Positions 41,979-44,144 of a stretch of DNA of 64,000 bases are shown here, piece by piece. Every line of letters starts with the position of its first letter. The stretch's first letter is position 1. The position numbers and the translations under genes are program-made. The notes under the pieces were generated by a model that was given only the letters and a program-made list of their open reading frames with translations, was not told the origin of the DNA and ran no database searches. Source of the stretch: Methylobacterium tardum (GTDB lineage Bacteria; Pseudomonadota; Alphaproteobacteria; Rhizobiales; Beijerinckiaceae); assembly GCF_023546765.1 (NCBI RefSeq), contig NZ_CP097484.1:4124001-4188000 (forward strand). The letters are read 5' to 3'.

Positions 41979-42416
41979 GGCCTCGCCTCGTGGGTTACGA
42001 GACGACGCGTCGCCGGTCATCCTGGGTCAGGGCCGTGGCCGGCAGCCGCGCCGGTCGCCCCGCGGCCAGGCCTCTCAGCGGCTCAGGCGGGACGACGGCA
42101 CGGGGCCGGGCACGGCAGGCACGATCGGTCGGGCACGTCGCTTCGCGGGTCGCTGCTGAATGGGAGCACGGCGTCGCCGGAGACGATGTCGCGCGGCTGC
42201 GTCGTGCGCCCGCGCGGAAAGCCCGTCAAGCCGAAACCGTTCCCGATTCCGCGCCTTCCGACCATCCGCCTCACTCCGCGCGCGGGTGTCACACCGCGGC
42301 ACCAGCGTGCGCCCCGATCAGGGCCGCGTCCCTATGAGAAATATAAGTGTTGCGCTCGCTTGTATTGCGTCCAAGATATTGCCTATATGCACTCAGCAAC
42401 AGCGAGGAGAAACGCC
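41979..42416. promoter_or_regulatory. 438-base region between mgtE and pqqA1, with candidate pqqA promoter
   Basis: The mgtE side is GC-rich, with ORFs I cannot support. From about 42330 the sequence becomes AT-rich (ATGAGAAATATAAGTGTTGC). A candidate -35 TTGTAT (42360-42365) and -10 TATATG (42384-42389) 18 bases apart would start transcription about 20 bases before the pqqA1 ribosome-binding site (GCGAGGAG, 42401-42408). The exact promoter is uncertain. Confidence 0.4.
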
Positions 42417-42506
42417 ATGGCCTGGTCCGCCCCGATCGTGTCCGAGATCTGCGTCGGCATGGAAGTCACCAGCTACGAGTCGGCTGAGATCGACACCTTC
42501 AACTAA
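42417..42506 (+). CDS. pqqA: PQQ precursor peptide PqqA, copy 1
   Basis: A 29-residue peptide, too short for most gene callers. Residues 16 and 20 are the Glu and Tyr (EVTSY) that PqqE crosslinks to form pyrroloquinoline quinone; SEICVGMEVTSYESAEIDTF is the typical core. It is preceded by GAGGAG seven to nine bases before the ATG. Compared with the M. extorquens peptide as I remember it, residues 2 and 4 are Ala and Ser. Copy 2 lies 80 bases downstream and encodes the same peptide, with three synonymous differences, all in the first 25 bases. No other pqq gene is in the window. Confidence 0.95.
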   Translation: MAWSAPIVSEICVGMEVTSYESAEIDTFN

Positions 42507-42517
42507 GTCTCTGCGGT

Positions 42518-42538
42518 CCGAGGCGGATCGTGCCTCGG
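42518..42538 (+). terminator. Hairpin between the two pqqA copies
   Basis: CCGAGGC-GGATCGT-GCCTCGG, a perfect seven-base-pair stem with a seven-base loop, 11 bases after the pqqA1 stop. It has no U-run, so it may be a partial attenuator or an RNA-stabilising/processing structure that sets the ratio of the two cistrons, and not a full terminator. Confidence 0.5.
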
Positions 42539-42586
42539 TCATCGCGGTCTCCAACTAAAATTCCCGAATCTCGTCAGGAGGAAAAC

Positions 42587-42676
42587 ATGGCTTGGTCTGC
42601 CCCGATCGTTTCCGAGATCTGCGTCGGCATGGAAGTCACCAGCTACGAGTCGGCTGAGATCGACACCTTCAACTAA
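42587..42676 (+). CDS. pqqA: PQQ precursor peptide PqqA, copy 2
   Basis: A 29-residue peptide identical to copy 1. The ribosome-binding site is stronger (CAGGAGGAAAAC, AGGAGG at 42577-42582, five bases of spacing). The DNA from residue 9 to the end is identical to copy 1, and the first part differs only at codons 2, 4 and 8, silently. This looks like a recent duplication, or two copies kept alike by gene conversion. A strong terminator follows, so the pair forms a short transcript without pqqB. Confidence 0.95.
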   Translation: MAWSAPIVSEICVGMEVTSYESAEIDTFN

Positions 42677-42696
42677 GTCGGCGACAGCACGGTTTG

Positions 42697-42730
42697 AGCG
42701 CCGCTTCATTCGAAGCGGCGCTTTTCGTTT
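42697..42730 (+). terminator. Strong intrinsic terminator of the pqqA pair
   Basis: AGCGCCGCTTC (42697-42707), loop ATTC, GAAGCGGCGCT (42712-42722), an 11-base-pair perfect stem followed by TTTTCGTTT. It ends the pqqA transcript before the convergent nucleoside transporter gene. Confidence 0.92.
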
Positions 42731-42897: not shown

Positions 42898-44144
42898 TCA
42901 GCTCACGAAGAGCCCCGCGATGGCCGCGCTCGTGAGATTCGAGAGGGACCCCGCCAGGATCGCCCGGAGCCCGTAGCGCGCGACCTCGGAGCGGCGCTCG
43001 GGGACGAGGCTCGAGAAGCTCGCGAGCTGGATCGCGATCGACGCGAAATTCGCGAAGCCGCACAGGGCGAAGCAGACGATGGCCTGCGAGCGCGGGTCGA
43101 GCGTGCCGGCCTTCAGGGTCGGTGACAGGTTGGCGTAGGCGAAGAATTCGTTGAAGGCGAGCTTCTGGCCGATCGCGCCGCCGACCAGCGCCGCGTGCTC
43201 CCACGGCACACCGAGAAGCCACGCCAGGGGGCTCAGCACCCAGCCGAGCACGCCCTCGAACGAGGCGCCGGGATAGCCGAGCCAGCTCCCCGCGGTGCCG
43301 AGAAGCCCGTCCGCCAGCGCGATCAGCCCCACGAAGGCGATCAGCATGGCGCCGACCGAGACGGCCACCGCCAGCCCCTCTGCGTGCCGTCCGCCGCCGC
43401 CTCGATGATGTTGGCGGCACGGGTTTCGCCGAACTCCACCCGGGTGGTGGCGATCCGGGTCGGCTCGGTCGAGGGCATGAGGATCTTGGCGTAGAGCAGG
43501 CCGCCGGGGATCGCCATCACCGAGGCGGCGAGCAGGTAGGTCATCGGGACACCGAGGGCGGCGTAGCCGGCCAGGATCGAGCCCGCCGTCGGCGAGGCGC
43601 CGCTCGACATGACCGCGAACAGCTCGGCCCCGGTCAGGAGCGCGAGGAACGGGCGCAGAGCCACCGCGATCTCGCTCTGGCCGATGGCGATCGTGATGAC
43701 GGCGGCGAAGGACTCGATCGGCGCGGTGCCGAGGATCCGCTGGAGGACCGCACCGAGGCCGCGGGCCAGGGCCTGCATCAGGCCGACATGATAGAGCACC
43801 GCGATCAGGGCCGAGACGTAGAGGATCTGCGGCAGCACGCGCAGCGCCAGGATGAAGCCCGAGCCCCCGAACAGCTCGAACATCTTCGGCTCGGCGAGGC
43901 CGCCGAACAGGAAGGCCGTGCCGCGGTCGCCGTAGGACAGCACCGTCACCACCACGTCGGCGGCCGCAACCAGCGCGGCCTGTCCGGCGGGCAGGAACAG
44001 GACCAGCGCCCCGAGACCCACCTGCAGCGCGAGGGCCGTCAGCACGACCCGCGGGCGGATCGCCCGGCGGTTGGTGGAGAACAGGGCCGCGACGGCGAGC
44101 AGCAGCAGGAGGCTGAGGCTGGCATGGGTCAGGCGGTCGAGCAT
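42898..44144 (-). pseudogene. NupC-family nucleoside transporter, apparent frameshift
   Basis: Concentrative nucleoside:cation symporter (CNT family), about 415 residues if restored. The first frame (44144 to ~43390) has GLGALVLFLPAG, GGSGFILALRVLPQILYVSALIAVLYH and GQSEIAVALRPFL, the CNT signature. The second (~43380 to 42898) has GQKLAFNEFFAYANL, CFALCGFANFASIAIQ and RAILAGSLSNLTSAAIAGLF. They meet near 43385, where GGCACGCAGAG should be GGCACGGCAGAG (one G restored gives DGTAEGLAVAV). Intact motifs on both sides argue for an indel error. It converges on the pqqA terminator. Confidence 0.88.

Follow-up and report, generated by a model that had tools for sequence, protein, structure and literature searches.

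PQQ is required by both the Ca- and the lanthanide-dependent methanol dehydrogenases. Each PQQ that is formed consumes one molecule of the peptide PqqA, with PqqB-E acting as catalysts, and PqqE joins residues Glu16 and Tyr20 of the peptide. More than one pqqA copy is found in several described systems, of which the Methylophilaceae and Methylovorus are distantly related to the group of the locus described here.

The closest described system is that of Methylorubrum extorquens AM1, which belongs to the same bacterial group and contains, besides the pqqABC/DE operon, two pqqA genes with adjacent numbers. These orphan copies, named pqqA2 and pqqA3, changed fourfold between Nd sources, the direction of the change being stated differently in the results and in the discussion of the paper (PMC11317620). 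With La, the AM1 pqqA genes META1p4628 and META1p4629 showed log2 changes of -3.7 and -3.4, compared to -1.7 to -2.0 for pqqB, pqqCD and pqqE (PMC6414531), and since the operon pqqA is META1_1751 (PMC9320726), these two are taken to be orphans; presumably they are the same genes as pqqA2/pqqA3 and as MEXAM1_RS21885/RS21890 of PMC6520949. Why PQQ genes fall when the lanthanide enzymes rise is called unknown in PMC6414531. PQQ is still formed in a pqqA mutant of AM1 (Toyama and Lidstrom 1998, via PMC6520949), for which two extra pqqA homologues have been proposed as the reason (PMC6520949), and it has been suggested that PqqA might take part in an alternative route of Ln uptake (PMC11317620).

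In strain CM4, two consecutive pqqA paralogs were higher on chloromethane than on methanol (PMC5585157), while in M. aquaticum 22A pqqA is duplicated as well and, going by the name PqqA1A2BCDE, the pair heads the operon, with pqqA1A2 and pqqBCDE responding differently (PMC4392154, PMC5784242). Further away, 3 to 12 pqqA genes accompany a single set of the other pqq genes in Methylophilaceae and Methylovorus MP688 (PMC4109929), and the MP688 copies respond differently (Ge et al. 2015, cited in PMC6520949). The published responses of pqqA copies differ between studies.

The window (the whole 64,000-nucleotide stretch of the Methylobacterium tardum chromosome that was analysed) contains two adjacent pqqA genes apart from pqqB, an arrangement like that of the AM1 orphans and, unlike that of 22A, without pqqB directly 3' of the pair. 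Orphan pqqA genes of this group are already in print; what is apparently new is the control element upstream of them. No description of its dyad promoter, or of the covarying spacer hairpin of the locus, was found in the main text of openly licensed papers, a search in which inverted repeats were barely queried and hairpins were not.

Results

The features of the locus are listed in Table 1. The sequence-only reading of this DNA had claimed two 29-residue PqqA frames with the same protein, separated by 80 bases, with three silent differences and about 65 shared 3' coding bases, all of which agrees with the present data: both frames translate to MAWSAPIVSEICVGMEVTSYESAEIDTFN, the spacer runs from 42507 to 42586, the copies differ at codon 2 (GCC/GCT), codon 4 (TCC/TCT) and codon 8 (GTG/GTT), i.e. 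3 of 90 nt, and the final 66 coding bases are the same. In a profile search, both score 34.6 bits against Pfam PqqA (PF08042; cut-off 21.1), which had no match in any of 14 control genomes. Both carry Glu16 and Tyr20, residues that are also named in PMC10906245. The ribosome-binding site of copy 2, claimed to be the stronger one, is indeed somewhat stronger in the window (duplex of -10.3 versus -8.7 kcal/mol), but this does not hold as a rule, being stronger in 11, equal in 4 and weaker in 22 of 37 genomes.

Table 1. Features of the orphan pqqA locus (positions within the window)
Feature	Position	Strand	Basis
Promoter block conserved before the orphan pair, TATGAGAAATATAAGTG...CTATAT	42333..42388	+	Alignment, 32 genomes
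27-bp dyad AATATAAGTG-TTGCGCT-CGCTTGTATT, predicted operator	42340..42366	.	8/10 arm positions complementary
Possible core promoter TTGTAT, 18 bp, TATATG	42360..42389	+	Suggested by sequence and alignment
pqqA copy 1 (ATG to stop), 29 aa, with Glu16 and Tyr20	42417..42506	+	Sequence (direct read), Pfam PqqA match
Intercistronic hairpin (7-bp core 42518-42538)	42511..42547	+	Fold, covariation in 23 aligned spacers
pqqA copy 2 (ATG to stop), 29 aa, same protein as copy 1	42587..42676	+	Sequence (direct read), Pfam PqqA match
Intrinsic terminator, 11-bp stem and T-rich tail	42697..42730	+	Fold, shuffles

The assembly of the window (6.94 Mb, 2 contigs) contains three PqqA copies, namely the pair at 4.166 Mb and one at 2,886,749, 1.28 Mb away on the same chromosome. 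This third copy lies 33 bp upstream of pqqB (the only strong pqqB match genome-wide), with pqqE at 2,889,273 (584.9 bits), so that the search for further pqq genes proposed by the sequence-only reading located what looks like an ordinary pqq operon, with a promoter that differs from that of the pair. Because the third pqqA heads pqqB and pqqE elsewhere, the pair is an orphan, and would be an additional supply unit rather than the sole source of PqqA. Each orphan copy differs from the operon copy at 9 of 90 nt and encodes Ser where the operon copy has Ala, next to the leader Trp. The possibility of pqqB lying downstream of the pair was rejected, as the pair is followed by the terminator and then by a nucleoside-transporter gene on the opposite strand. 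This transporter gene (window 42898-44144, minus strand) is split into two frames by a frameshift, while its homologues form a single frame (434 residues between stops) in all four relatives examined; it is either a pseudogene or the product of a sequencing error.

In what follows, the genus is Methylobacterium in the wide sense, Methylorubrum included, and close examination covered 37 genus genomes (that of the window included) out of 61, with G037, a member of another family, excluded. Comparison across the genus, which had been suggested from the sequence, showed a tandem pqqA in all 37, with two copies in 33 and three in 4. Since the tandem recurs in all of these genomes, some of which consist of 1-4 contigs, an assembly duplication was rejected. 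The tandem is separate from pqqB in 32 genomes, whereas in the other five (G012, G015, G020, G024 and G036) it lies 18-41 bp before pqqB; these fused genomes make up one side of a pqqB-tree branch with a support of 99/98. An operon pqqA is also present in 31 of the 32 genomes with a separate pair, the contig of the remaining one (G028) stopping 103 bp before pqqB. The first two copies differ in nucleotides in all compared genomes except two, which also speaks against an assembly duplication; in several genomes the differences amount to 0-3 nt. In a gene-conversion test, copies of the window's clade differed by a mean of 3.2 within genomes, only slightly less than the 4.3-4.9 between genomes, and those of the Methylorubrum-type clade by 3.8 within genomes versus 2.6-2.8 for same-copy comparisons, which does not establish strict gene conversion.

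The core with E16 and Y20 is intact in all orphan (68/68), operon (31/31) and fused (10/10) peptides, and GMEVT[SA]YES is unchanged in all 68 orphan copies. The residue after the leader Trp is Ser or Thr in every orphan peptide (68/68, one with a shifted start being read in register), whereas all 31 operon peptides have Ala there; of the 10 fused ones, 8 have Ser and 2 have Ala.

PqqA was found in all 99 genus genomes of a wider draw, and a single match only in G075, G102, G113 and G122. Of these four, G113 carries another, diverged frame upstream of pqqB, the contig of G122 stops within the first copy (3' of the dyad), and G102 (110 contigs) shows only the copy of the pqq operon and no pair, from which it follows that the orphan pair may be dispensable. 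Contigs often stop inside or beside the tandem (G101 contig C96, with four pqqA copies at a 159-bp spacing, L142, L144, L161 and L176), and draft genomes may therefore miscount pqqA.

A further, single orphan pqqA occurs in eight genomes (L105-L112, in G019, G022, G030, G006, G003, G008, G004 and G034). Their upstream sequences are different ones, which in G030 and G006 include the block variant TAAGAGGAATATAAGT, and terminator-like hairpins can be made out by eye; G019 also holds a pqqA copy with an altered C-terminal end.

Upstream of position 42417, where the sequence-only reading began, lies the most striking feature of the locus, a conserved block of 56 bp that is absent from that reading. 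It starts 84 bp before the ATG in the window, and its consensus, TATGA[GA]AAATATAAGT...CRCTTGTATTGCG.CCAA....CTATAT, is found upstream of all 32 separate pairs, the right half being less strict (e.g. CTTGAATT in some pairs) and the 16-nt start having at most one mismatch in any of them. The mean major-base frequency over the 32 genomes is 0.89 in the block versus 0.38-0.46 in the 80 bp upstream, and while anchoring of the rows on the first 16 nt favours that part, the unanchored right arm still reaches 0.95. A sigma-70 consensus scan of the locus detected no promoter. The 16-nt element was found within 4 mismatches in none of 30 operon promoters (one at 5; G028, for the contig end mentioned above, and G035, not located, being dropped from the 32), nor in the five fused loci or ten further ones.

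Within the block lies a dyad with the consensus AATATAAGTG-N7-CRCTTRTATT, of which 7-9 of 10 arm positions are complementary. The genome of the window holds a single site at up to 3 mismatches, i.e. no second site that would point to a wider regulon at that threshold. Across the wider draw, exactly one site (up to 2 mismatches) is present in 81 of 99 genomes, compared to 3 of 99 for a reversed control pattern, its position before the pair being confirmed by direct inspection in 32 of the 81. The 18 genomes without a site comprise 15 fused loci, two with shortened spacing (G106 and G117) and the one without a pair (G102). In G106 and G117 the block is present with one base fewer between the dyad arms, which fits poorly with a rigid dimer site. 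The 15 fused tandems have pqqB within ~60 bp and a TCTTA-type repeat in place of the dyad block, and it is these block-less loci that 22A, by the name of its operon, resembles, whereas the pair of the window stands apart.

In a collection of species genomes, the exact IUPAC pattern of the block start occurs in at least 69 stretches, one site each, among contigs of up to 5 Mb (in G002, G005 and others the site lies on longer ones). Among the matches listed, all have Methylobacterium or Methylorubrum in the title, the exceptions being L180 (Methylobacteriaceae bacterium) and L187 (Beijerinckiaceae bacterium), by which the absence of the block elsewhere is only indicated. Two or three pqqA copies lie within 900 bp of the block in 63 of the 69, and a single copy in three, of which L132 and L144 are on contigs that stop within 340 bp and L154, with 6.9 kb left, is truly single; the contigs of the last three stop within 210 bp, either ahead of the first gene or partway through it. 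These named loci mostly repeat species of the numbered genomes and are not an independent sample. At up to one mismatch, the block is present in 7 of 10 genus members and in 1 of 189 others in a family-wide set of 199 genomes. MgtE is encoded within ~3 kb of the pair in 24 of the 32 genomes with separate pairs and not in the other 8; in three of these 8, the flanking genes that were identified encode a seryl-tRNA synthetase (G005), an enoyl-CoA hydratase (G018) and, in G033, a transporter of the ArsB/citrate type. Since the neighbours change while the block stays, the block travels with the pqqA genes.

The 11-bp intrinsic terminator proposed from the sequence is well supported, with a stem at 42697-42722 followed by TTT CG TTT and a z-score of -4.33 (0/200 shuffles as good). 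A terminator-like hairpin (defined as a hairpin with a T-run, one mismatch allowed, some being weak, e.g. in G006) follows the last copy in all 32 separate pairs and in 59 of 61 named loci, these being the ones among the 69 with two or more copies and 130 bp of sequence downstream. It is absent after all five fused tandems tested, the loci likened to 22A, while it was found in 33 of 620 shuffles (from 31 of the 32 loci, the downstream stretch of G028 being short) and in 1 of 41 spacers, which are shorter. With E up to 1, Rfam gave nothing useful for the window stretch, its one match, isrG on the terminator, being at chance level (15.6 bits versus a gathering score of 100).

As claimed before, the spacer contains a 7-bp hairpin at 42518-42538, to which the fold adds a lower stem. 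Taken alone, the whole spacer is unremarkable (z of -1.89, 11 of 200 shuffles folding equally well), but its first 48 nt have a z-score of about -3. Over the 24 distinct spacers of the window's clade (from 28 loci, duplicates counted once), the start has a mean z of -2.67 (range -0.52 to -5.29), compared to values mostly near or above 0 for the second part, and the fold is retained while the sequence varies widely. In the 23 that were aligned (L171, with a 93-nt spacer, being left out), 88.2% of cells pair, and 15 cells are changed on both sides versus a shuffled mean of 4.6 (0/500 as high). The covariation score is 0.381 versus a shuffled mean of 0.242 (0/500 as high) and at most 0.158 for slid versions, a control that leans in favour of the tested structure, which was derived from the same alignment. 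Two other counts, namely pairs with a double change (4; 53/500 shuffles) and further pair types (10; 210/500), did not go beyond the shuffles. In the window's clade, the spacer hairpin is, as judged from this alignment, a conserved covarying structure. The signal is weaker in the other separate pairs (mean z of -1.25, -1.08 and -0.91), including Methylorubrum-type genomes, while in the fused clade a hairpin follows copy 1 in five loci (mean z of -2.43). A role of the spacer hairpin as a terminator is unsupported, as only the one spacer mentioned above is terminator-like.

The orphan pairs of Methylorubrum-type loci (L148; G005, G009, G016, G018, G027 and G029) have an insertion of ~80 nt in the 5' leader, the predicted fold of which is a long hairpin, GAACACGAGGG...CCTTCGTATTC (z-scores of -1.25 to -3.29 in six leaders). 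In six such genomes the block starts 165-169 bp before the ATG, compared to 84 bp in the window. The 17 aligned sequences vary too little for covariation to show, and no Rfam family was found at gathering score in two of these loci. The insertion may represent a leader RNA; it occurs in the clade in which orphan pqqA genes respond to lanthanides.

Discussion

The reading that we favour, with a probability of roughly three in four, is that the locus is an autonomous, separately regulated transcription unit that makes only PqqA and whose supply would be controlled through the dyad. A peptide-only unit had already been proposed, and this fits with pqqA-pqqB-pqqE lying elsewhere, with the unit's own conserved promoter block and with the terminator-like hairpins of all separate pairs. 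The private promoter and terminator, together with the published expression in relatives, support a separately regulated unit for substrate supply. A regulator would probably bind the 27-bp dyad, which overlaps the -35 region or lies immediately before it, and one short mRNA with two PqqA cistrons would be made, ending at the terminator, on which the spacer hairpin would probably protect or space the two cistrons. If both are translated, the product would be a ribosomal peptide that is fed to PqqE and whose Glu16 and Tyr20 become PQQ. Because PqqA is consumed with each PQQ, while PqqB-E are catalytic, a separate, multi-copy and regulated source of PqqA could move the PQQ supply up or down without altering enzyme levels. 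An extra dose of precursor seems the likeliest role of the pair, which would imply that PqqA supply limits PQQ here.

Whether the pair serves a regulatory purpose of its own can be doubted, since the orphan and operon peptides are near-identical and the copies may homogenise, as the 0-3 nt differences in several genomes suggest. It could go back to an old duplication that has persisted through drift or because it backs up the operon pqqA, and the proposal that homologues account for the PQQ of the AM1 mutant (PMC6520949) agrees with this. However, selection on separate control is suggested by the private promoter, which is far more conserved than the flank upstream of it, and by the terminator-like hairpins of all 32 pairs, and the peptides have kept distinct marks (Ser/Thr after the Trp in all orphans versus Ala in all operon copies), so that simple redundancy appears unlikely. 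The same Ser/Thr substitution, along with the response of the AM1 copies to La and Nd and the suggestion of a role in Ln uptake (PMC11317620), might instead point to peptides with another end than that of an ordinary PQQ precursor: they could bind lanthanides or take part in their uptake, or else act in signalling or be directed at plants. Given that the crosslinked residues and the surrounding core are unchanged in all 68 orphan copies, that no enzyme gene is included in the unit of the window, and that one clade has the tandem directly before pqqB, such an end is very improbable.

A last alternative, which is compatible with separately regulated PqqA supply, concerns the spacer hairpin, which might attenuate or process the mRNA to give a set ratio of the two cistrons. 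The double-changed cells in the window's clade and the similar hairpins after copy 1 in the five fused loci would be expected from such a function, but the signal is weak in other separate pairs, hardly any spacer is terminator-like, and a ratio between two identical peptides is of no obvious use. We therefore consider it rather unlikely.

Going beyond separately regulated supply, a dedicated regulator of PQQ need, responding to methanol, lanthanide state or PQQ, could have the dyad as its only high-affinity target, retained in most of the genus, with the Ser/Thr orphans forming a distinct, regulated class of PqqA and flux being set by synthesis of the substrate peptide. This is put forward tentatively, and the odds are against it. 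If true, it would help to account for the dispensability of pqqA in AM1 and for shifts in PQQ output at unchanged enzyme levels. In any case, a separately controlled precursor source with a defined, conserved DNA element offers a concrete handle on the regulator and on PQQ limitation, while pqqA knock-outs that overlook orphan copies are not simply interpretable.

The tandem of the 15 fused loci is preceded, ~43-65 bp before the ATG, by a repeat of the TCTTA-N6-TCTTA type, which is also seen before most operon pqqA genes (by eye, uncounted). It is a candidate response-regulator site, as the gene upstream of the operon pqqA in the genome of the window reads like a response regulator, by analogy perhaps mxbM.
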